Position numbers and translations under genes: made by a program
Notes under the pieces: model-generated
The model's database searches: none
Seen by the model: the letters and a program-made list of their open reading frames with translations, nothing else
What the model was told of the DNA's origin: nothing
Assembly: GCA_030695565.1 (NCBI GenBank)
Contig: JAUYRZ010000078.1
Span: 1 to 64,000, forward strand
Reading direction: 5' to 3'
Length of the DNA: 64,000 bases
DNA from: Archangium sp.
GTDB lineage: Bacteria > Myxococcota > Myxococcia > Myxococcales > Myxococcaceae
Shown here: piece by piece, positions 2,713 through 42,045 of the stretch
Layout: every line of letters starts with the position of its first letter
Numbering within the stretch: the stretch's first letter is position 1

Positions 2713-6421
<3,709 letters not shown>

Positions 6422-6435
<14 letters not shown>

Positions 6436-6808
6436 AATCACCTCCGCCCGCGGTTCGGCATCGGGGTTGCAAAAGGTCAGCAGCATGAAGCGGGTCGCTG
6501 TCGCAATTCTGGCAATGGTCGTCGTCTCCGGGTGCGGAGTCGGCGCCGATGAGTATTACGACGGCCAGAACCTGGTCTCCTCCAGCGGTGAAGCGCTGAC
6601 CACGGGGCCTGAAGTCGGCCCTCAGCTGCCGGGTGGAAATGGGCCGCAAACGCCCGGGACCACGGCGCCTTCACCGGTTCGTGATCCCTCGACGGTGGCG
6701 CTGCCTCAGGACCCCATCCCGGTCTACGAAGGCAAACCCCTGCCTCAGCAGCCCCCTCCGATGAGGGAAGTCCAGCGGGGCCCGGCGCCGACGCCCGGCT
6801 TTCGCTGA
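6422..6808 (+). CDS. Small lipoprotein, unknown function
   Basis: 128 residues from the ATG at 6422, which overlaps the end of the sigma54 activator gene by 14 bp and has a near-perfect AAGGAGGT just upstream. A second in-frame ATG at 6485 (own weaker AAGG) gives a more typical lipoprotein signal, MKRVAVAILAMVVVSGCG, with lipobox VSGC. From 6422 the n-region would be unusually long (about 25 residues). The mature part is low-complexity, rich in Pro, Gly and Gln, with no recognisable domain. The overlap suggests translational coupling to the activator, so it may be a target or partner of that regulator. Function unknown. Confidence 0.7.
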
Positions 6809-6821
6809 AAGCGCCAAGCTC

Positions 6822-8467
<1,646 letters not shown>

Positions 8468-15674: not shown

Positions 15675-16805
15675 TCAGTCGTAGTGACAGGCCTGCCCGC
15701 GGCATCTGCCCGAGCTGAAGCAGGCGTTGTCCGTCCCCTGGCAATCGCAGAGCCCCGCGGCGCAGACCTGGGTCGTCGGCGTCTGGGGCGAACAGCCGGC
15801 GCCGGGGCCGGGGAGATTGGCGCAGGCGCAGCGCCCCGTCGCACGACCACTCTCAGAGAAGGGGCTGCAAACTCCAGTGGGGCACACCAGACCGCATTGG
15901 CCGCAGTTGGCGGGGTCGTTGCCCAGGTTCAGGCAGACCGTGCCGCAACACTTCGAGGCCGGAGCCGAGGCGTTGCACGACCTGTGAAGGCAGTCGGGGT
16001 CGCCGCAGTCGATCAGCGCGTCGCCGTCGTTGTCGCTGCCATCGAAGCAGTTCTCGACGGGGGCGCAGGCCGCAGCGCAGCTCGGATCCTGGCAGTCGAC
16101 CAAGCCGTTGCAGTCGTTGTCGCGCAGGTCGTCGCAGATCGTCTCGCTGGGCTGGGTGACCCCTCCGTCGACCCTGCAGGTGCACGTGCTGCCCACGCAA
16201 CGCCTCCCGTTGGCGCCGCAGGTCTGACCCAGGCAGCTCGGCTGCGCGCAGTCGATGCGGTCGTCACAGTCGTTGTCGAGGCTGTCGGTGCACAGCTCGG
16301 GAGAGGGGAGCACCTCCCCGGTGCAGCTGCCGAAGCCTGCCCCGCCATCACTGTCGGCGACGCAGGTCTGCGCGCCCCGACGGCAGACGCCGGAGCAGGT
16401 GCCTCCATCGCACGCGCTCGCGGGCCCGGTGAAGCAGGCTTGCGTCACACCCGCGTCGCAGGTGCAGCCTTCGTCGACCTCACCATCGCAGTCGTTGTCC
16501 ATGCCGTCGCAGAGCTCTGACTTCGGCTCGCAGCTGATCATTCCGCCACCGCCGCCCCCCACTCCGCCGCCGGTCGATCCACCACCACCGCCGGTCGATC
16601 CACCACCGCCACCTCCCGCCCCGCCCGCGCTGGGGCCGCCGTCGAAGTCGCCAGCTCCCATCGCGCAGACGTCTTGAAGGCACCGGTAGCCGTCGATGCA
16701 GTCCTCATCAGATTGGCAGGCGAACACCCGGTTCTCGTAGCCGGTGGACTCACAGAGGCATGAGCAGAAGAGCAGCGCCAGCGGCACCCAGGAACGAACG
16801 ATCAC
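15675..16805 (-). CDS. MopE-like Cys-rich metal-binding surface lipoprotein
   Basis: 376 residues from GTG 16805, which overlaps the preceding stop (GTGA). The signal region (VPLALLFCSCLC) has Cys residues suitable for lipidation. A Cys-rich N-terminal motif is followed by a Gly/Ser linker (about residues 58-88). Then come four MopE-type repeats of the form C-D-x-x-DNDCDG-x-(V/I)-D, for example LCDGMDNDCDGEVDEGC and ICDDLRDNDCNGLVDC. The C-terminal third is again Cys-rich. This repeat family (PF11617) is named for a Methylococcus surface protein that binds copper and is associated with surface c-type cytochromes; similar Asp-rich loops can bind calcium. It is the last gene of the cytochrome-porin operon, so a metal or electron-acceptor role at the cell surface is plausible. 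Confidence 0.85.
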   Translation of the reverse strand: MIVRSWVPLALLFCSCLCESTGYENRVFACQSDEDCIDGYRCLQDVCAMGAGDFDGGPSAGGAGGGGGGSTGGGGGSTGGGVGGGGGGMISCEPKSELCDGMDNDCDGEVDEGCTCDAGVTQACFTGPASACDGGTCSGVCRRGAQTCVADSDGGAGFGSCTGEVLPSPELCTDSLDNDCDDRIDCAQPSCLGQTCGANGRRCVGSTCTCRVDGGVTQPSETICDDLRDNDCNGLVDCQDPSCAAACAPVENCFDGSDNDGDALIDCGDPDCLHRSCNASAPASKCCGTVCLNLGNDPANCGQCGLVCPTGVCSPFSESGRATGRCACANLPGPGAGCSPQTPTTQVCAAGLCDCQGTDNACFSSGRCRGQACHYD

Positions 16806-17212
16806 CTGTGACCTCTGGCGCGCCTGGGCAGCGTCAGGCTGAGAATAAGGAGCGACCAGAGCGCCTGCCCCGGTGCGGTGCTGCAGCCATATTGCGGCAG
16901 CGGCGGCCCTGCGGTGGTCGACGCCTGGTTGGGGTCGCCTCCGTCGCGCAGCTCATCGCGATCGTTCGCCCCGTCGCCATCGCTGTCGACGCCCTGCAGG
17001 TTCTCCAGCGCCGTCGTGAGCGTCGCTTCGTCGGAGGCCATGAGCCCCCGCTCCCGCAAAGCGGCACCGAACGGCGTGGTCACCGTGCCCCGCATCGGCG
17101 CGCCCCGATGGCACACCGTGCAGTCGGGTGAGGGGCCGCTCGACCAGGCGGCGACGACCGCGGGGAAGTTCGGGGTGGCGAGGATCGTTGCCGTGAGCAC
17201 GGAGAGAATCAT
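16802..17212 (-). CDS. Monohaem c-type protein with MYXO-CTERM-like tail
   Basis: 136 residues. The N-terminal hydrophobic segment serves as a signal peptide. CTVCH at residues 31-35 is a covalent haem attachment site (CxxCH). Residues ~75-88 carry a thrombospondin-3-like calcium loop (DSDGDGANDRDEL). The C-terminus has a lone Cys followed by a hydrophobic helix and an Arg cluster (GCSTAPGQALWSLLILSLTL, then PRRAR). That is the layout of the MYXO-CTERM sorting signal used by myxobacteria to anchor proteins at the surface. I read it as a small surface-exposed cytochrome. Its ATG overlaps the stop of the porin gene (ATGA) and its own stop overlaps the next start. Confidence 0.8.
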   Translation of the reverse strand: MILSVLTATILATPNFPAVVAAWSSGPSPDCTVCHRGAPMRGTVTTPFGAALRERGLMASDEATLTTALENLQGVDSDGDGANDRDELRDGGDPNQASTTAGPPLPQYGCSTAPGQALWSLLILSLTLPRRARGHR

Positions 17213-18375
17213 AGGTAGAAGTGGAGCTGCCCCAGCAACGAGTAGTGGAGCGCGCCATCGGGTTCACGGCGCGTGATGAAGTCGACGCGCACGTCGGCGT
17301 GGGGCGCGAAGAACCACCACGCTCCCGCCCAACCGCCCACGCCCACCCCCGAGCTCACCTGCCGAAACGAAGGAACGGACACCTCGCCGAGCGCGACCAG
17401 GTGGAGGCCCTGCGTCAGCTCGAGATCGGCATGGAGCAACCCGACACCGCCGAGGTCGCCGCCCAGGCCCGAGCGCGACACGTGCGTGACGTCGGCCTCG
17501 AGCGAGAGCACCAGCGGGCGCCAGGGCGCGAGCCGCCCGAAGATGCCGTGCGCGTGACGGAAGACCGCTCGTTCGGGATCCTGCAGATCTCGCTGGGCGT
17601 GGGTCACCAGGCTCGACACCCCGAACGTGGCCCAGGTGTTGGGGGTGAGCTCGAGGAACCCCGAGTAGCCGCGCTCTCGGTACTCCAGGGGAGAGAGCTG
17701 GAGATTTCCCACCACGCCCATCAGCTCGCCGCGCACCCGTTCGCCCGAGTACGCGAGGGACACCCCGTGCTGCTGCGAGGTGTTGGTGTCGGTGCGGGTC
17801 GACGCGCGCGCCCAGGCCGTGTGCTCGGGCAGCCGCACCCCGAAAGGAAGAGGCATGCGCCCCAGCCGCAGCATGAACGACTGGTCTTCATCGGGCGCGT
17901 AGCCCACCCAGTGGTGGCGCGAGATGAGCTGCACCCGGTCGCCCACGAGCTTCGCCGGCGTGGTGGCGGCGCTGCCCAACCCGAGGCTGCCGCTGAAGGT
18001 CAACTTGCCGCTCTTCACGGCAGCCACCACGTCGGCTTGCATCGGAAACGCGCGGGGCTTCGTGAGGCTGGACCCGCCGAGCACCGCCACCCGCACGTCG
18101 CCGCCGAGCAAGACCTCCTCGGGCAGCTCGAAGAGTCCGAAGAGAAAGCCCGCCACCTTGCCGGGCTCGTCGGCGGCGACGCCGTACCGCGTGCGCAGGA
18201 TCAGCTCGCCCTGGGCCCGCCCGTAGGCGGTCAGCACGGAGCCACCCGAGGGGTCGACGTGGCATTGCGCGCAGGAGGTGTAGTCGTGGCGAAGCATGAA
18301 GCCGTACGCCTGGGCGGTGCCGCTCGAGGTGATCGCAAGCGCGCACAGGGCTGCGCTGAGACTCGAAGCCTTCAT
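17209..18375 (-). CDS. Outer-membrane porin with N-terminal haem (Cyc2-like layout)
   Basis: 388 residues from ATG 18375 (ATGA overlap with the upstream stop). A signal peptide (cut after TAQA) is followed almost at once by one haem site, CAQCH, at residues 35-39 in the context DYTSCAQCHVDPSGGS. The remaining ~330 residues alternate in amphipathic strands with aromatic girdles (for example HHWVGYAPDEDQSFMLRLGR) and end LLGQLHFYL, as outer-membrane barrels do. A single CxxCH fused to the start of a porin is the layout of Cyc2 iron oxidases, but the exact Cyc2 haem context is not conserved here. It probably sits in the outer membrane with the haem in or near the pore, passing electrons across it. 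Substrate unknown. Confidence 0.75.
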   Translation of the reverse strand: MKASSLSAALCALAITSSGTAQAYGFMLRHDYTSCAQCHVDPSGGSVLTAYGRAQGELILRTRYGVAADEPGKVAGFLFGLFELPEEVLLGGDVRVAVLGGSSLTKPRAFPMQADVVAAVKSGKLTFSGSLGLGSAATTPAKLVGDRVQLISRHHWVGYAPDEDQSFMLRLGRMPLPFGVRLPEHTAWARASTRTDTNTSQQHGVSLAYSGERVRGELMGVVGNLQLSPLEYRERGYSGFLELTPNTWATFGVSSLVTHAQRDLQDPERAVFRHAHGIFGRLAPWRPLVLSLEADVTHVSRSGLGGDLGGVGLLHADLELTQGLHLVALGEVSVPSFRQVSSGVGVGGWAGAWWFFAPHADVRVDFITRREPDGALHYSLLGQLHFYL

Positions 18376-19271
18376 GGCGCGACGATCCGCCCCGGGGCGC
18401 CGTTCGCCCCCGCCTGGGTGTGGCACGAGTTGCAGTCGCCCGAGGTCTGCGTCGCGCCCATGTGGCGAACGCGGCCCTGGTATTCCACCCGCGCGCGGTA
18501 GGGCTTGATCAGCAGCGGCGAGCTGAAGAGATAGAAGTTCCCCGCCGCGTTCACCGGCAGCCGGAACTCGGCGCCGTCGGCCCCGGTGAGGACCACCGTG
18601 CCGTTGCCCGGCAGGCCGTTGCAGAGGTCAGGCTCGTGGGCCGTCGGGAAGACGGTGCCGGCGACGCCCTCGGGTGCGTCTTCTTTGCCTTCGTCGAGGT
18701 TCCTGGGCCGGTGGCAGGTGATGCAGGCCCGGCCCGGGTTCATCAGGGGTGACTTCAGATTTCCAGACGTCCACGAGACCTGGCTGGTGCAGGTGGGGGC
18801 CGCGGCGAAGGGGTCGGGGCCCGCGTCGACCACCCCTGCGTCAGACGACTGTGCGCAGTCGAGGCCGCCGGGCAGCCCGGCCTGAAGCCAGCGCTCGACG
18901 AGGTCCCGCTCTGCCGCCGGCAGCAGCCCCGACGGAGGCATGGGGCGCGCGGCGTCGTGCATTCGCAGCGAGACGACGGCGGCGACCGAGCTCGAAGGGG
19001 CCGACGGGGCCGGGCGGCTGAAGTCGTCCCGGCTCACCAGCGGCATCGGCGCAGACGGGCGGGTGCCGTGGCAGCCCAGGCACCTCGCCGCCAACACCTG
19101 TTCGACGTCACAGGGAACGCCGCTGGGTGCGGGAAGGCCCGAGTCGGTCGAGGTGTTCGGGGCCTCCGCTTCACGGCCCGCGTCCTCCCCGGCGGCGTCA
19201 GGCAGGTAGCACCCGGCGAGCGCCAGCGCGATCAACCCTGCCCTGCACACGGTGGCGTTCCCCGGGCTCAC
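18372..19271 (-). CDS. Triheme c-type cytochrome lipoprotein
   Basis: 299 residues from GTG 19271 (GTGA overlap with the yceI stop). Lipobox ALAGC places lipid on Cys21. Three CxxCH sites are visible: CLGCH at 64-68, CITCH at 183-187 and CNSCH at 280-284. The first ~110 residues resemble the planctomycete-type cytochrome domain (RCLGCHG, then MPPSGLLPAAERDLVERWLQ). Between haems 2 and 3 is a beta-rich segment. Covalent haem attachment implies export and the cytochrome c maturation machinery. In this operon it is the natural periplasmic or lipid-anchored electron partner of the haem-porin. Confidence 0.85.
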   Translation of the reverse strand: MSPGNATVCRAGLIALALAGCYLPDAAGEDAGREAEAPNTSTDSGLPAPSGVPCDVEQVLAARCLGCHGTRPSAPMPLVSRDDFSRPAPSAPSSSVAAVVSLRMHDAARPMPPSGLLPAAERDLVERWLQAGLPGGLDCAQSSDAGVVDAGPDPFAAAPTCTSQVSWTSGNLKSPLMNPGRACITCHRPRNLDEGKEDAPEGVAGTVFPTAHEPDLCNGLPGNGTVVLTGADGAEFRLPVNAAGNFYLFSSPLLIKPYRARVEYQGRVRHMGATQTSGDCNSCHTQAGANGAPGRIVAP

Positions 19272-19783
19272 GGCTTCACCACGAACGCGGCCGTGACCTT
19301 CACCTCGGGCTTGACCGTCACGCCCAGGTAGCTCGGCACGTCGATGTTGTGCGACTTGATGTTGATGTCGAAGTGGCCCTTCACCTCGAGGCCGTCACCT
19401 GCCTTCACCACGTCGTAGGTCACCGCGACTTCCTTCGAGACGCCGTGCACCGAGAAGAGGGCGGTGCCGGTCTGGCCGGGGCCTTCCTTGAGCATCGAGC
19501 GCGCGACCTTCAGCTCGGCCGTGGGGAAGGTGCCGGTCTGGAGGTACTTTTCTTTCATGTGCTGGTTGCGCAGGCCGATGCCGGTGTCGACCGAGTCGAG
19601 CGCCACCTTGATCACCACGACGTCGCCCTCGTTCTTCACCTCGAGGGTCTTGGTCTCGCCTCTGATCTTCAGCCCCGCCGGGCCCGTGGCCAGGAAGCTG
19701 ACGTCGTTGACCTTGACGACGCCGAGATCCGCCAGCGAGAGGGTCGAGAGGCACAGCGTGAGGGCGATGAGGAGTCGAGTCAT
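19268..19783 (-). CDS. YceI-family periplasmic protein
   Basis: 171 residues with a short signal peptide (LLIALTLCLSTLSLA). The YceI lipocalin-like barrel follows, with the characteristic GIGLRNQHMKEKYLQTGTFP segment (family 'D.R..hl....Fd...yP'), the central SVHGVSKEVAVTYDV and the closing IDVPSYLGVTVKPEVKV. YceI proteins bind long polyisoprenoid molecules in a hydrophobic pocket, and some are tied to electron-transfer genes. A TGGAG lies about 7 nt before the ATG. It is the first gene of the cytochrome-porin operon and may bind a quinone or other isoprenoid electron carrier; that is inference. Confidence 0.9.
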   Translation of the reverse strand: MTRLLIALTLCLSTLSLADLGVVKVNDVSFLATGPAGLKIRGETKTLEVKNEGDVVVIKVALDSVDTGIGLRNQHMKEKYLQTGTFPTAELKVARSMLKEGPGQTGTALFSVHGVSKEVAVTYDVVKAGDGLEVKGHFDINIKSHNIDVPSYLGVTVKPEVKVTAAFVVKP

Positions 19784-21003: not shown

Positions 21004-21636
21004 ATGGCATTTGGAAGGCCACTTCTCTCCGTCGTTCCGCCCAGCGAGCCGCTGGACGACGCGGCCCTCATCGCGCGGGTCAAGGCGGGGGAGAGTTCGA
21101 TGGCCAACGCGCTGGTGCGCCGGGCCGGCCCCCGAGCCAAGGCGCAGGTGCGGCGCCTGCTGCGGCAACGAACGCCAGACGACGATGACCTGCTGCAGTC
21201 GGTGTTGATCGAGCTGGTGACGACCATCGACTCGTACCGTGGCGACTGCAGCCTCAATACGTGGATCGACCGCATCACCGCCCACGTCGTCTTCAAGCGC
21301 CTGCGCCGGCAGAAGCTCGAGAAGCGGCTCTTCGAAGGCCTCGATGACTCGACGGGCGAGGTGGCCTCCGATGCCTCGGCTGAGCGGGCCGCCCTGACGA
21401 GGAGCGTGCTCGCGAGGGTTCGAGCTCGGGTCGCCCACCTCGATCAGGGGAACGTGACGGCCTGGCTGATGATCGACGTGTATGGCTTGACGATCGAAGA
21501 GCTGGCCAGCGCGCTGGAGCTCTCGGTGGCGGCTGCGCAGAGCCGCGCGTCACGCGCCCGCCGCGAGGTGAGGGAGTGTCTGCGCGGCGACGAAGAGCTC
21601 GAGGATGTGCTCTCTTCCTGGGAGGCAGCGTCATGA
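21004..21636 (+). CDS. ECF-type RNA polymerase sigma factor
   Basis: 210 residues. Region 2 (DDDDLLQSVLIELVTTIDSY ... SLNTWIDRITAHVVFKRLRR) and region 4 (LTIEELASALELSVAAAQSR, a helix-turn-helix) are both present, separated by a short linker, as in ECF sigma70 factors. It directs RNA polymerase to alternative promoters. TACAGA sits 7 nt before the ATG as a possible -10 element. The next gene, a FecR-type membrane protein, overlaps by 4 nt and is the likely anti-sigma or signal-transducing partner. The signal sensed is unknown. Confidence 0.9.
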   Translation: MAFGRPLLSVVPPSEPLDDAALIARVKAGESSMANALVRRAGPRAKAQVRRLLRQRTPDDDDLLQSVLIELVTTIDSYRGDCSLNTWIDRITAHVVFKRLRRQKLEKRLFEGLDDSTGEVASDASAERAALTRSVLARVRARVAHLDQGNVTAWLMIDVYGLTIEELASALELSVAAAQSRASRARREVRECLRGDEELEDVLSSWEAAS

Positions 21637-22697
21637 ACCGACCCGTCGACGAGCGTGTGGCGCGGGCTCTCTCGCCCCAGCCGGTGGCAGAAGAGGTGCC
21701 CCTCACGGACGCCGAGACCGAGCTCGCCATCGACCTGGTGGCCGCCGCGCTCGCGGCCCGTCGGCCCGTCGCACCCGAGGCGCCCGCCCGCATTCCCGCC
21801 AGGCGCCCGCGCGTGGTGTGGGGCGCGCTGGCTGCGGCCGGCCTGCTGGGGGGCCTGGTCGCCGCGCTCGTGCTCTCTCGAGGGGGCCCCGAGGCTCCCC
21901 AGGCCCAGGTGCTCGAAGCAGGGCTGGCCACTGCGACGACGGGCCAGGGCACCCGCGTGGTCGCTGACGGCGATGCGCTCGGGGCCGGGGCCCGGCTCAA
22001 GACGCCGCACGAGGGGCACCTGCGGCTGGGCTTCGCTGAAGGCACGCAGCTCTGGCTGGGCGAGAAGACCGACGTTCGGGTCGAAAAGCTGGGCCTCGAG
22101 CGCCGCTTCGCGCTCGTCGAGGGCCGGCTCTCTGCCTCGGTGATCAAGCTCAAGACCGGCGAGCGCTTCGTGATCGAGACGGCGCGCGCCGAGGTCGAGG
22201 TCAAAGGCACGCAGTTCCAGGTCGACGCGCAGGCCGCCACCGAAGGCTGCCCCGCGGGTCAGACGGTGGTGTCGGTCGAAGAAGGCGTGGTGGCGGTGCG
22301 CGCCGAGGGTGTCGAGGTGCTGGTCAAGGCGGGCGAGCGCCACGCCGTGGGGTGCCCTCCTTCGGTGCAGGTCGAGCCTGATGCCGTCGCGCCGCAGCTC
22401 AGAAAGAAGCGACGCAGCGTGCCCCCCGCGTCTTCGTCGCTGGCGAAGATGAACGCGCAGTACGCGCGGGCCATGGCGCTCAAGCGCGAAGGTCGGCCCC
22501 TGGCGGCCGCGAAGGCGCTGCGGGCGATGCGAGAGGCGTTCCCGATGGGCCCACTCGACGAGGCCGCCGCGGTGGAAGAGCTGCGCCTGCTCGAGCAGGT
22601 CGATCTTCCCGCCGCGCGGGCCGCTGCGAAGGCCTACCTCCTCGAGTACCCCGATGGGTACGCAGACGACATCGCGAACCGGCTGGTGGCCCCGTGA
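21633..22697 (+). CDS. FecR-domain membrane protein, probable sigma regulator
   Basis: 354 residues from ATG 21633 (ATGA overlap; GGGAGG upstream). An N-terminal cytoplasmic segment of ~60 residues precedes one membrane span (VVWGALAAAGLLGGLVAALVLS). The periplasmic FecR domain has the typical pattern LKTPHEGHLRLGFAEGTQLW ... LVEGRLSASVIKLKTGERFV ... VEVKGTQFQV. A C-terminal helical segment of TPR-like pairs ends the protein. FecR proteins control partner ECF sigma factors across the inner membrane. The coupling to the sigma gene immediately upstream supports that role here. Confidence 0.87.
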   Translation: MNRPVDERVARALSPQPVAEEVPLTDAETELAIDLVAAALAARRPVAPEAPARIPARRPRVVWGALAAAGLLGGLVAALVLSRGGPEAPQAQVLEAGLATATTGQGTRVVADGDALGAGARLKTPHEGHLRLGFAEGTQLWLGEKTDVRVEKLGLERRFALVEGRLSASVIKLKTGERFVIETARAEVEVKGTQFQVDAQAATEGCPAGQTVVSVEEGVVAVRAEGVEVLVKAGERHAVGCPPSVQVEPDAVAPQLRKKRRSVPPASSSLAKMNAQYARAMALKREGRPLAAAKALRAMREAFPMGPLDEAAAVEELRLLEQVDLPAARAAAKAYLLEYPDGYADDIANRLVAP

Positions 22698-23155
22698 GCG
22701 CCCTTCGACTGGGCGCCTTCGCGCTGCTGGCGCTGAGTGGCTGCGACGCCGACTTTCGTTTTGCGCTCGACGCCGGCGCGCCTGACGCGGGCGTCAGCGC
22801 CGACGGAGGCTGCGGTTGTGCCGCGCCGTTTCCGTTGTGTCGAGACGACGGCACCTGCGTGGAGTGCCGGGGCGATGCCGACTGCCCGGGACAGCTGTGC
22901 GACGTCACGACCGGCCGCTGCGCCGTGAGCTGCAATCAAGCGGCAGATACGTGCGACCCAACGATGTACCGGCGCGGCTGCAGCGACGACGTGGGCGCGG
23001 CGCGGTGCACGGACTGCAAAGAGCCTGAGGACTGCACGGGGGCGTCGCCGGTGTGCGCCGCGAGGCGTGGCGTCTGCGTGCAGTGTGCGACGAACCTCCA
23101 CTGTGCGGGCGCGACACCCCGGTGCGACGTGGTGCTCGGCCAGTGCGTGCCCTGA
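22694..23155 (+). CDS. Cys-rich lipoprotein
   Basis: 153 residues from GTG 22694 (GTGA overlap with the FecR gene). The lipoprotein signal is LGAFALLALSGC. A DAG-rich spacer (LDAGAPDAGVSADGG) is followed by a Cys-rich body with about ten pairs of Cys in 'C..D.DC.g..C....g.C' spacing, typical of myxobacterial secreted proteins stabilised by disulfides. It is probably surface-exposed. Co-transcription with the sigma/FecR pair suggests it is part of the response or signal input. No enzymatic motif is seen. Confidence 0.82.
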   Translation: MSALRLGAFALLALSGCDADFRFALDAGAPDAGVSADGGCGCAAPFPLCRDDGTCVECRGDADCPGQLCDVTTGRCAVSCNQAADTCDPTMYRRGCSDDVGAARCTDCKEPEDCTGASPVCAARRGVCVQCATNLHCAGATPRCDVVLGQCVP

Positions 23156-23199: not shown

Positions 23200-24171
23200 A
23201 TGAAGCTGTCCGGCAGACTCCGCGTGCTGATCCTCCTCTCGTTCGGAGCCTGTCGCGACTTCGACCTCGCGGCGGCCCAGTGCGTCGAGCAAGGCCGTTG
23301 TGCCCTCTTGGATGCGGGCCAAGACGCAGGCCTGGGTGTGGTCTGCAACGACGCCCTCGACTGCGAGAGCGGCCGCTGCGTCGATGGCCGGTGCTGCAAC
23401 AGCGAGTGCGCGAGCGCCTGCGATTTCTGCGATCTCCCCGGGCTCGAAGGCCAGTGTCGGGTGGCTGCGCTCGGCCGCACGCCCTCGGTCGCTTGCGAAG
23501 GAGGGTATGCGTGCAACGGCACCAGCGCCGAGTGCAGCACCTCGTGCGCGTCGGATGCGGGGTGCGTGGGCGCCCGATGCGGGTCAGGTGCGGTGTGCAT
23601 CGAAAAGGTGGTGCAGCTCAAAGACGACTTCACCTCGGGCCGCTTCGAGCCTTCCATCTGGGCTTCGCCGGGGCCCAACTGCTCGGTGGTCAACCAGCAG
23701 TTCCACGCGACCACGGCGCCGGGCGCCGTCAACTTTGCCCGGGTCTATTCGCGCCGACGCTACGATCTGATCGACTCCGAGCTGCGCCTCGAGCTGATCA
23801 GCGCCGGAAATCAGTCACTGGCGACCATGCAGGCGCTCGCAGGCGGCTGTGACTTCGCCACGGGCCTGCGCTGCCTGTACCTCACCGTCGGCAACGGACA
23901 GGTGCATGTTCAGATGTCCGACGACACCACGTACAGCGCGCCCCTGGGCTACTTCCCCCTGCAGAACTTCCGCGCCGTGAGGTTGAGGGAGCAGGCAGGC
24001 ACCCTCTTCCTCGAGGCCCGAAATGCCGACGCGGGCTTTCAGCAGCTCGGCTCGGTGCCCACGCCCCTCGCTTCGTACTGGAGGGACATGCGCATCGGCC
24101 TCGGGGCGGGCACGTATGGGGCCGAGGCCACCTCGAGCACCGTCATCTGGGACAACGTCAACACCCCTTAA
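23200..24171 (+). CDS. Cys-rich lipoprotein with lectin-like C-terminal domain
   Basis: 323 residues. The signal is LRVLILLSFGAC with lipobox-like FGAC. The first ~130 residues are a Cys-rich DAG-containing stalk (for example CNDALDCESGRCVDGRCCNS). The remaining ~190 residues look like a concanavalin/laminin-G-like beta-sandwich: it starts LKDDFTSGRFEPSIW, has alternating strands with LRLELIS and FRAVRLREQAGTLFLEARNA, and ends SSTVIWDNVNTP. A carbohydrate- or surface-binding role is possible but unproved. It converges with the chitinase gene, whose last codons overlap its stop. Confidence 0.78.
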   Translation: MKLSGRLRVLILLSFGACRDFDLAAAQCVEQGRCALLDAGQDAGLGVVCNDALDCESGRCVDGRCCNSECASACDFCDLPGLEGQCRVAALGRTPSVACEGGYACNGTSAECSTSCASDAGCVGARCGSGAVCIEKVVQLKDDFTSGRFEPSIWASPGPNCSVVNQQFHATTAPGAVNFARVYSRRRYDLIDSELRLELISAGNQSLATMQALAGGCDFATGLRCLYLTVGNGQVHVQMSDDTTYSAPLGYFPLQNFRAVRLREQAGTLFLEARNADAGFQQLGSVPTPLASYWRDMRIGLGAGTYGAEATSSTVIWDNVNTP

Positions 24172-26183
24172 GGGCGGCTCAGGATGTCGGCGCCGATGGT
24201 GTTCGCCCACGCGAACGATTGATCGGAGTCGCTCTGAATGGTCCACACGAAGGCGCCCCGGATGTTGATGCCGGCGTTCCTGAGTTGGGTGAGGGCCTGG
24301 CCGGTGGTGCTGAGGCTGACGAGGCTCACGGGGCTGACGGAGGTGGTGGGTGAGTCGGGTCGATACTTGTTGCCCAACAGCACCTTGGCCGCGCCGTACT
24401 TGTTCGTCAGCGCGGTCATGCGCTCGACGATCTTCGCCTGGTAGCCCGCCTGCGAGAGCCCGAGATCGTAGACCTGCTCGCCGATCGCGTCCCAGCCGTT
24501 CGGGCCGAGCTGCTCGAGCACGCCACCCGGGCCGATCCACGTGCTGAGCTCCGGGCCGGGAGCGAAGTTGATGATCCACGTCGGCCCGAACTCGGCGCGC
24601 ATGCGCTGCGAGGCGGCGACGATGCCCGCGACGTCGGGCCGGTTGCCCTGCTCGAGATCCCAGTCCATGCCGTTGAAGCCCCAGTTGGCCTGGAAGTCGC
24701 GCATGGAGGCCATGAACTGATCGACCTTGGCCGTCGAGTCGAGCCGGTAGCCGATGTTCGAGTTGCCGAGATCGAAGTAGCCGCCCACCGAGACCACCAC
24801 CTTCTTGCCCCTCGCGTTGGCGTAGGCGATCTGGTCCTTGAACTGGCTCGCGCTGCCCGCGCCCGGCGGCAGGTCGAGGCGTAGCGTGCCCGACGAGGCC
24901 GCGATCCCCACCGCGAACGAGACGTAGACGAGGTTGTAGTTCGTGTTGTCGACGATCGAGCGCAGGGTGACTCCGTTGCGCGCCTCCCAGGTGGTGAAGT
25001 AGCCGGCGACGACCTTCGCCGGAAGGTTGCCTGAAGGCGGGGGCGTCGCCGAAGCGGTGGTGAAGGTGTTGTCGCCTGACGCGGTCGTTCCACCGGCTCG
25101 ATTCCGCGAGATGACCCGGTAGTGGTAGCGCGTGCCGGGGTTCAGGCCCGAGAGCGCCTGGGTGTGCGCCGAATAGGTGAACGACACCTCTTCCGGCGTG
25201 CGCACGCTCCCGTAGGCGGGGGTGGTGCCGTACTCGATCCGGCCCGTTCCCGGCTCGTTCAACGTCCACGAGATGGCCGCTCCGGTTTGGGTGAGGTTGT
25301 TCGCCATCACGGCGCTGATCGCCGGCCCGGCGATGGCCGCGCCGGACGTGGTGAAGGTGTTGTCGGCAGAGGAGGAGGTGCCACCCGCCCGGTTCTGCGA
25401 GGTGACTCGGTAGTGATAGCGCGTGCCCGGCATGAGGCCCGACAGCGTCTGGCTGTGCCCCGAATAATTGAACGACACCTCTTCGGGCGTGCGGGTGGTG
25501 CCGTAGGCCGTGGTGGTTCCGTACTCGACCTTGCCGGTGCCCGGCTCGTTGAGCGTCCACGAGATGACCACTCCGGTCTGGGTGAGGTTGCTCGCCGTCA
25601 CCGCGCTGATCACCGGCCCCTGCACCGGGGCCGCGTCAGAACACACGAGAGGATCCCAATAATACGTGCTGACCGTCGGGTCGTAGCCCGGGTTGGCGAA
25701 CTCGGCGATGTAGAGGTTGCCGTCGGTGTACCTGACGATGTCACCGGCCGCGTACTGCGATTGGCCGCTCCACGCGGGGTAGGTCCTGAACGGCTCCCAG
25801 TAATATGTGCTGATGGTGGGGTCGTAGCCGGGGTTTGCGAACCTGGCGCGGTAGAGGTTGCCGTTGCTGTGCTTCACGACGTCACCGGCCGCGTACTGCG
25901 CTTGTCCGCTCCACGCCGGGTAGCCCGCGAAGGGAGCCCAGTAGTACGTGCTGATCGTCGGCTCGTAGCCCGGGTTCGCGAACTTCGCGATGTAGCGCTT
26001 CCCGTCGGTGTACTTCACGACGTCTCCCGCCGCGTACGCCTTGCCCTGCACCCAGCTCGCCGTCTGATCACACGACGCCACGAGCTCTCTTTCGGAGGTC
26101 GCCAGACCCTCCGAGGCGGGCGTCTCACCGCAGCCTGACGACACGACCGACACCACGAAGAACAGCAAGATTGATGTGCGCAT
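24168..26183 (-). CDS. Modular GH18 chitinase lipoprotein
   Basis: 671 residues from ATG 26183 (a GTG 12 nt further upstream is also possible). The lipoprotein signal ends in VVSSGC. Three CBM5/12 chitin-binding modules of 47 residues each lie at about 38-180 (repeat core AYAAGDVVKY ... NPGYEPTISTYYW). Two fibronectin-III domains that are near copies of each other follow at ~195-375, then a GH18 TIM barrel at ~385-671. The active-site motif reads FNGMDWDLEQ: the catalytic Glu and the last two Asp of DxxDxDxE are present, while the first Asp is Asn. It hydrolyses beta-1,4-GlcNAc polymers at or outside the cell surface, which fits a predatory or saprophytic life style. Confidence 0.92.
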   Translation of the reverse strand: MRTSILLFFVVSVVSSGCGETPASEGLATSERELVASCDQTASWVQGKAYAAGDVVKYTDGKRYIAKFANPGYEPTISTYYWAPFAGYPAWSGQAQYAAGDVVKHSNGNLYRARFANPGYDPTISTYYWEPFRTYPAWSGQSQYAAGDIVRYTDGNLYIAEFANPGYDPTVSTYYWDPLVCSDAAPVQGPVISAVTASNLTQTGVVISWTLNEPGTGKVEYGTTTAYGTTRTPEEVSFNYSGHSQTLSGLMPGTRYHYRVTSQNRAGGTSSSADNTFTTSGAAIAGPAISAVMANNLTQTGAAISWTLNEPGTGRIEYGTTPAYGSVRTPEEVSFTYSAHTQALSGLNPGTRYHYRVISRNRAGGTTASGDNTFTTASATPPPSGNLPAKVVAGYFTTWEARNGVTLRSIVDNTNYNLVYVSFAVGIAASSGTLRLDLPPGAGSASQFKDQIAYANARGKKVVVSVGGYFDLGNSNIGYRLDSTAKVDQFMASMRDFQANWGFNGMDWDLEQGNRPDVAGIVAASQRMRAEFGPTWIINFAPGPELSTWIGPGGVLEQLGPNGWDAIGEQVYDLGLSQAGYQAKIVERMTALTNKYGAAKVLLGNKYRPDSPTTSVSPVSLVSLSTTGQALTQLRNAGINIRGAFVWTIQSDSDQSFAWANTIGADILSRP
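25090..25640. repeat. Duplicated fibronectin-III coding units, 291-bp period
   Basis: Two consecutive FN3 modules of the chitinase gene align base by base with a period of 291 bp (97 codons); for example ACGACACCT occurs at 25181 and 25472. The high identity suggests a fairly recent in-frame duplication or gene conversion between the two linker domains. Confidence 0.75.
25650..26070. repeat. Triplicated chitin-binding module, 141-bp period
   Basis: Three tandem copies of a 47-codon unit, marked by ATACGTGCTGA-like sequence at about 25662, 25803 and 25944, encode the three CBM5/12 modules at the N-terminus of the chitinase. Confidence 0.8.
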
Positions 26184-26287
26184 GAGGGCCGGCACAGCAA
26201 CGCCGGGGCCAGCGCAGAAGTCGTTGATTCACCTGACGTGAGTGGCCTTACGCATGGACTGAGGGTGGGCCAGTGGAGCGCTCCGGG

Positions 26288-41424: not shown

Positions 41425-42045
41425 ATGCGCATCGCTCTCGTCTCGCTTCTGCTCGTTTTCGCTGCCTGCAAGCCCTCGAACAACGCGGCGCCCAAAGCGA
41501 CTTCTGCCGCGGTCATCGCTGAGCCAGCGGCCGTGGCCCCCATCGAAGGGGCGGTCGCGTACCCCTTCACGCAGGCTGATTCCAAACTCACGTGGCTGGG
41601 GCAGAAGGTGACCGGCAAACACGAAGGCAGCTTCGGCGTGTTCGGCGGCATCATCGAACTGGTCGGCGGTGACGTGACGAAGAGCCGGGTGCGCGCGGAG
41701 ATCGACATGAGCTCGCTCTCCACGACGCCTGAGAAGCTGGCGGCTCACCTGAAGAGCGACGACTTCTTCGGCGTGGAGAAGTTCCCCCGCGCGACGTTCG
41801 TGTCGACGGCGATTCAGAAGACCGGCGAGACGTATTCGGTGACCGGCAACCTCACGATGCACGGCGCCACGAGGGCGATCACGTTCCCCGCGAGCATCAC
41901 CGTGTCCGACGCAGAGGTGACGGTGAACGCCGAGTTCGCGATCAACCGCAAAGAGTTCGGCATCGTGTACCCGGGCAAGCCCGACGATTTGATCGCCGAT
42001 GACGTCGCGCTCAAGCTCGAGCTCCACGCCAAGAAGAAGATATGA
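41425..42045 (+). CDS. YceI-family lipoprotein
   Basis: 206 residues. Lipoprotein signal RIALVSLLLVFAAC. A ~35-residue Ala/Pro linker leads into a YceI barrel (SKLTWLGQKVTGKHEGSFGV, LAAHLKSDDFFGVEKFPRAT, GNLTMHGATRAITFP). The 'LkSddFFdvekyPrATF' segment is the clearest family mark. It should bind an isoprenoid ligand at the membrane surface. It is a second, more canonical YceI than the one at 19268. Confidence 0.93.
   Translation: MRIALVSLLLVFAACKPSNNAAPKATSAAVIAEPAAVAPIEGAVAYPFTQADSKLTWLGQKVTGKHEGSFGVFGGIIELVGGDVTKSRVRAEIDMSSLSTTPEKLAAHLKSDDFFGVEKFPRATFVSTAIQKTGETYSVTGNLTMHGATRAITFPASITVSDAEVTVNAEFAINRKEFGIVYPGKPDDLIADDVALKLELHAKKKI

Follow-up and report, generated by a model that had tools for sequence, protein, structure and literature searches.

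A YceI, haem-porin and cytochrome operon of Archangium and its relatives: a candidate minimal redox conduit across the myxobacterial outer membrane

The operon and its products

We analysed a window of 64,000 nt, positions 1 to 64,000 of the forward strand of contig JAUYRZ010000078.1 in the Archangium sp. assembly GCA_030695565.1 (Myxococcota), and followed up five genes on its minus strand (15675-19783) that encode, in operon order, a YceI-family lipocalin, a triheme lipoprotein, a 388-aa porin with one CxxCH motif (the haem-porin), a monohaem protein and a Cys-rich protein. The stop codon of each gene and the start of the next overlap by exactly 4 nt at all four junctions (GTGA, ATGA, ATGA and GTGA), and the CxxCH motifs number 0, 3, 1, 1 and 0 along the operon. 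When the residues of the proteins were shuffled, the CxxCH count was matched in 0 of 20000 trials for the triheme protein, 8 of 20000 for the haem-porin and 16 of 20000 for the monohaem protein. The original prediction, which was made from the DNA letters, had correctly located the five open reading frames, their overlaps and the five CxxCH sites, and its naming of YceI is borne out by the Pfam match.

The first gene (19268-19783) encodes a YceI protein of 171 aa that matches PF04264 at 53.6 bits (cut-off 23.7), carries a signal peptide and has no Cys in its mature part; it is predicted to be a soluble periplasmic binder of isoprenoids or quinones. YceI proteins bind ubiquinone-8 and have been linked to cytochrome b561 in the BcnA/LcoA pair (PMC9113575), and in Cbp2D a YceI domain is fused to c-type cytochrome domains (PMC8981238). 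Seven YceI matches were found in the window's genome. A second YceI gene in the window, of the lipoprotein type (41425-42045, plus strand), lies between genes for an M32 carboxypeptidase and a ThiS-family/MoaE-domain protein.

The haem-porin (17209-18375) has a signal peptide, a haem segment (AYGFMLRHDYTSCAQCHVDPSGGSVLTAYGR) and a predicted barrel. An AlphaFold2 model built on an alignment of 43 sequences (mean pLDDT 91.1, pTM 0.86) places 16 barrel strands between residue 88 and the C terminus, with the CxxCH motif at residue 35 standing between the signal peptide and strand 1. In a Foldseek search of the PDB the best matches were porins and other outer-membrane barrels, with TMq values up to 0.62 (Vibrio OmpT at 0.62, chitoporin, PorB, Omp32, OmpF, and OprO at 0.58). 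The outer-membrane barrel proposed for this product is thus upheld by structure prediction. No Pfam or NCBIfam family was assigned to the window's copy and a HMMER search recovered no sequence relatives among solved structures; the commonest Pfam match among its relatives, Porin_O_P (PF07396), is weak and was found in 17 of 43 members. C35, C38 and H39 do not vary among the 43 porins, some of them only 21% identical to the window's copy, and neither do G44, G52, R95, G172, G179, R181, R190 and E293; the family motif reads A-[YF]-P-x-M-[IV]-[RK]-H-x-Y-x-x-CxxCH-x-D-P-S-G...L-T-x-Y-G-R. The N terminus of such porins faces the periplasm. Given this orientation and the position of the motif ahead of strand 1, we expect the haem on the periplasmic side of the barrel, at its mouth, or inside the lumen, and not at the outer surface.

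A single haem motif fused to a barrel had been read as the design of the Cyc2 iron oxidases. Cyc2 proteins are recognised by a signal peptide, one CxxCH near the N terminus, a length of at least 365 aa, a 16-stranded porin domain of the Porin O/P type and two motifs, AXPXFAR[Q/K][T/Y], which is unique to them, and PXL (PMC8406198). The architecture is present in the haem-porin: a length of 388 aa, an apparent signal peptide followed by CxxCH at residue 35, and 16 predicted strands. Neither of the two motifs is: upstream of the haem site the window has AYGFMLRHDY (family consensus AYPWMIxHGY) in place of the first, and PXL, expected four residues after CxxCH, is missing from the window's sequence (CHVDPSGGSVLTAYGR). 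Across our survey sample of 195 Myxococcota genomes from 90 genera, a DNA pattern scan for the Cyc2 motif found it in 14 genomes, the window's own not being among them. When the porin family was aligned by hhalign with these 14 Cyc2-motif proteins, only the N-terminal 58 columns, comprising the haem segment and the signal peptide, aligned. With signal peptides removed, the porin-Cyc2 profile comparison scored 87%, equal to the 87% reached by a control cytochrome set (range of controls, 21-87%), whereas the monohaem-porin and monohaem-Cyc2 comparisons each scored 95%, above the controls. Because the porin-Cyc2 score does not exceed the controls, we claim no common origin for the haem peptides of the haem-porin, the monohaem protein and Cyc2. 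Membership of Cyc2 itself was rejected on the missing motifs and on a profile match at control level. What stands of the earlier reading of this protein is a predicted barrel with one N-terminal haem motif; the sequence likeness to the Cyc2-motif proteins is confined to the haem peptide. The haem-porin appears to work like Cyc2 but is not classed as Cyc2. Most of the 14 Cyc2-motif proteins (L098-L111) occur outside the family of the window, and both types are present together in two genomes, G019 and G104.

The monohaem protein (16802-17212, 136 aa) has a signal peptide, CxxCH at residue 31 within a CTVCH...TTPFG haem segment, a TSP3 calcium repeat and a Cys-TM-Arg tail (TM, transmembrane segment). 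Its orthologues share this plan, usually including the TSP3 repeat, and in 22 of them the NCBIfam MYXO-CTERM models TIGR03382 and TIGR03901 were matched in 11 and 7 cases, respectively. Myxosortase cleaves proteins with MYXO-CTERM, which become anchored to the cell surface (PMC11980579), so a surface location is expected and we predict that the monohaem protein is surface-anchored. The MYXO-CTERM-like tail noted at the outset holds to the extent that CxxCH, TSP3 and the tail recur and that half of the orthologues match a model, but the tail of the window's copy gave no direct match to the MYXO-CTERM models.

Conserved core and variable partners

The haem-porin family was found in 47 of the 195 genomes and 25 of the 90 genera, and synteny was counted at the 55 loci where the haem-porin gene had been called intact. 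The most constant partner is YceI, which lies upstream of the haem-porin at 41 of the 55 loci; where no triheme gene intervenes, the stop-to-start gap ranges from -11 to 108 nt. A TSP3/MYXO-CTERM-type monohaem protein with a CxxCH...TPFG-type segment is encoded just downstream of the porin at 38 of the 55 loci and also at L038, where the gene caller had missed it and which is counted apart; at seven more of the 55 a different haem protein occupies that place. The window's genome itself contains a second copy on another contig (L003), where YceI, haem-porin and monohaem protein follow one another with no triheme gene. Since the three recur together, the conserved unit is this core trio and not the five-gene set. 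The original prediction had made its case depend on homologous operons keeping the genes together, and for these three they do so in many genomes. No plasmid-borne relatives were found. At four loci (L061, L062, L065 and L081) a gene pair, c11 (one CxxCH) and c10, lies upstream of YceI ahead of the trio; it presumably resembles the DUF1592/DUF1552 pair. At L081 and L085 the haem-porin is a fragment of about 260 aa without CxxCH, possibly a decaying or broken copy.

The triheme lipoprotein (18372-19271, 299 aa) is an accessory, present at a minority of loci. It has the lipobox LALAGC and CxxCH motifs at residues 64, 183 and 280, the first in a class-I-like cytochrome c domain that is followed by a beta-sandwich-like domain between the second and third; its model reached a pLDDT of only 66 and gave no significant PDB match. 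A gene of this kind stands between YceI and the porin in the window and at L033, L039 and L041, its counterpart at L033 and L039 being a tetrahaem protein, and at L038 it is likewise upstream of the porin, YceI being hidden there by the contig edge. On the porin tree the five porins of these loci require a single label change (support 100/99), and the smallest well-supported set that holds them also includes L040, which has no triheme gene. The triheme's domain also occurs upstream of YceI at L070 and L074, and small monohaem cytochromes do so at L046, L050, L080 and L082; these loci are dispersed over the porin tree. Cytochrome lipoproteins, among them the triheme, have thus joined the core on several occasions, and that different cytochromes have repeatedly come to lie at one place beside YceI argues for a functional link. 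In a relative (L156, genome G109), a minus-strand gene for a 460-aa protein in which YceI is fused to two cytochrome c domains (7073-8455) lies directly upstream of a triheme lipoprotein gene (6074-6985), a natural fusion that ties YceI to c-type haems.

Relatives of the triheme's C-terminal dihaem domain occur in 59 of the 195 genomes. Two of them (L149:5747-7138 and L159:5392-7061) adjoin DUF1775/YcnI genes and another (L160:6463-9496) adjoins an efflux operon encoding an outer-membrane factor and a membrane-fusion protein. A YcnI member of the DUF1775 family is described as binding copper (PMC8424229). These neighbours hint at a separate, metal-related role for this undescribed domain.

The last gene of the operon (15675-16805) encodes a protein of 376 aa with 51 Cys and repeats of the CxxxxDNDC type, which had been counted as a MopE-like member of the set. 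The short Cys/DNDC repeat is indeed shared with MopE of Methylococcus capsulatus, but it is weakly recognised: the protein scores 25.6 bits against PF11617, below the cut-off of 27, and 41.3 bits against NF033662 (cut-off 41). The copper site of MopE* consists of two His and a kynurenine derived from Trp130 (PMC3423442). The window's protein has two His, and its sole Trp, at residue 6, leaves none after the signal peptide from which a kynurenine could be made, so it cannot form the MopE copper site. No MopE-like homologue was found beside the haem-porin at related loci, the nearest relatives being unlinked repeat proteins elsewhere. The gene overlaps the operon here only; we rejected it as the system's metal binder and regard it as a passenger.

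On the other side of one unknown gene, and divergent from YceI, a plus-strand set (21004-23155) joined by 4-nt overlaps encodes an ECF-type sigma factor (21004-21636; Pfam Sigma70_r2 and r4_2), a FecR-domain protein (21633-22697; Pfam FecR, 47.4 bits) and a Cys-rich putative lipoprotein (22694-23155). The sigma/FecR set also lies beside the operon at L033, L039 and L041, that is, in three of the four relatives with a triheme gene in the same position and in three other genera; orthologues of the third gene are present at L033 and L039 and, more weakly, at L041. The sigma factor and FecR are possible regulators of the operon. Also near the operon is a minus-strand gene for a GH18 chitinase with CBM5/12 and Fn3 domains (24168-26195).

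A candidate conduit and its alternatives

We lean, with modest confidence, towards the view that the products of the operon form a minimal redox conduit through which electrons would cross the outer membrane. Our reasoning for this is based on: (i) the gene set and its overlaps; (ii) the barrel model; (iii) the invariant haem motif; (iv) conservation of the trio; (v) the MYXO-CTERM signals of the orthologues and (vi) the cytochrome c assembly and maturation genes present in the window's genome. The cytochrome lipoproteins beside YceI on scattered branches, the YceI-cytochrome fusion at L156 and the published binding of ubiquinone-8 by YceI proteins also speak for it. Haem attachment, a quinone as the YceI ligand and hopping between haems are inferred, as would be any direction of flow or physiological substrate. 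In this working model the periplasmic YceI would hold an isoprenoid quinone and, together with a lipid-anchored c-type cytochrome (here the triheme protein), would exchange electrons with the single c-haem of the porin, held either inside the 16-stranded barrel or at its periplasmic opening. The porin haem would in turn pass electrons to or from the second monohaem, placed on the cell surface by the MYXO-CTERM pathway; alternatively, it might exchange them directly with a small redox molecule or a metal ion entering the pore.

Several observations weigh against the conduit. The family has a patchy distribution (47 of 195 genomes), three orphan porins (L077-L079) lack both partners, the triheme gene is present at few loci, and the tail of the window's monohaem protein (YGC-TM-RRARGHR) resembles MYXO-CTERM only by eye. 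In addition, the distance between two haems separated by a membrane-spanning barrel may be too great for electrons to hop directly, and gaps in metagenome-assembled genomes blur some of the synteny counts. To describe the five genes as a complete pathway, as was done originally, is too strong given that the triheme is an accessory.

It is also possible, if unlikely, that the operon serves as an envelope antioxidant in these largely aerobic lineages: quinol-loaded YceI would quench lipid peroxyl radicals, and the haem proteins would recycle YceI or detoxify outer-membrane peroxides. The constancy of YceI fits this scenario, and there is precedent in BcnA (YceI) and LcoA (b561), a pair that guards envelope lipids from peroxidation (PMC9113575). 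The present system would differ in that c-type haems and a haem-porin replace cytochrome b561. That no b561 gene was found in the operon or its Pfam-scanned neighbours weighs against the scenario, as do the seven YceI matches in the genome; moreover, quenching inside the envelope needs neither a porin nor a surface-tagged haem protein. We consider it quite unlikely that the system serves surface redox handling of a metal, copper or iron, which the haem-porin and its partners would reduce or oxidise in uptake or detoxification under ECF-sigma/FecR control. The divergent sigma and FecR genes, whose conservation extends over four genera, would suit such a role, as would the DUF1775 genes (L149, L159) and efflux operon (L160) beside dihaem-domain relatives. 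Those neighbours, however, adjoin homologues of an accessory domain that are not linked to the operon, no known metal transporter is encoded in the operon, and its MopE-like gene is neither conserved nor equipped with the copper-site Trp.

If the haem-porin were a true Cyc2-type oxidase that feeds electrons from Fe(II) into respiration, it would share the architecture described above, from signal peptide to minimum length, yet without AxPxFAR[QK][TY] and PxL, in a genome outside the 14 with Cyc2-type motifs, and with a profile match that spans only the haem peptide and is no better than control cytochromes, the sequence makes this reading very improbable. Least probable, to the point that we give it hardly any weight, is electron supply to secreted lytic polysaccharide monooxygenases (LPMOs) after the manner of Cellvibrio Cbp2D/E. 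The fusion of YceI and c-type cytochromes in Cbp2D (PMC8981238) and the nearby GH18 chitinase gene (24168-26195) brought it into consideration, but no AA10 LPMO was found in the window's genome, and LPMOs are about equally common in porin-positive and porin-negative genomes (13 of 47 and 47 of 148, respectively), a comparison on which we rejected LPMO feeding as a general role.

Returning to the conduit, we offer more tentatively, as a possibility that falls somewhat short of probable, that myxobacteria possess a minimal trans-outer-membrane conduit of their own, in which a second, non-Cyc2 class of fused haem-porin acts with a quinone-carrying lipocalin and a myxosortase-delivered surface cytochrome in extracellular electron exchange. 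If so, such exchange would take place in aerobic soil predators not known as electroactive. Our literature search returned no description of the system and no paper joining YceI with Cyc2. To our knowledge, fused cytochrome-porins have been discussed mainly as Cyc2 iron oxidases. The occurrence across Myxococcota of a second haem-porin class with a lipocalin and a surface-tagged cytochrome suggests that work on iron oxidisers understates both the variety and the spread of minimal outer-membrane redox conduits. Predatory soil bacteria would gain from it a route by which to exchange electrons with the outside, defend the surface against redox stress or carry out metal redox chemistry, and YceI would be assigned a putative physiological redox role beyond its pairing with b561. 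As several trio genomes are complete or nearly so, a cultured strain bearing the trio is probably available.

Comparison with known systems

The Cyc2 proteins of Acidithiobacillus, Mariprofundus and Gallionellaceae share with the haem-porin the fused single-haem porin architecture and the minimum length. The window's system differs from them in that YceI and a surface-tagged monohaem protein recur as its partners, in having its own haem-region motif and in having no known Fe(II) oxidation. With MtrCAB, MtoAB, PioAB and Pcc the likeness lies in a porin that, with periplasmic and surface c-type cytochromes, spans the outer membrane. Porin-cytochrome complexes of that kind have a large barrel sheathing a separate multihaem cytochrome, whereas here one haem motif is fused to a small 16-stranded barrel with no decaheme plug, and the partner predicted at the surface is a monohaem protein anchored by a MYXO-CTERM-like tail.

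Two further systems resemble the operon through YceI. In BcnA/LcoA a YceI lipocalin is genetically coupled to a haem protein, as it is here, but the haem proteins of the operon are a c-type haem-porin and cytochromes in place of a cytochrome b561, and their predicted location is the outer membrane and the surface. Cbp2D/Cbp2E of Cellvibrio japonicus combine a YceI domain and single-CxxCH domains in extracellular electron delivery; in the window's system the corresponding parts are encoded by separate genes together with a porin and have no carbohydrate-binding module.

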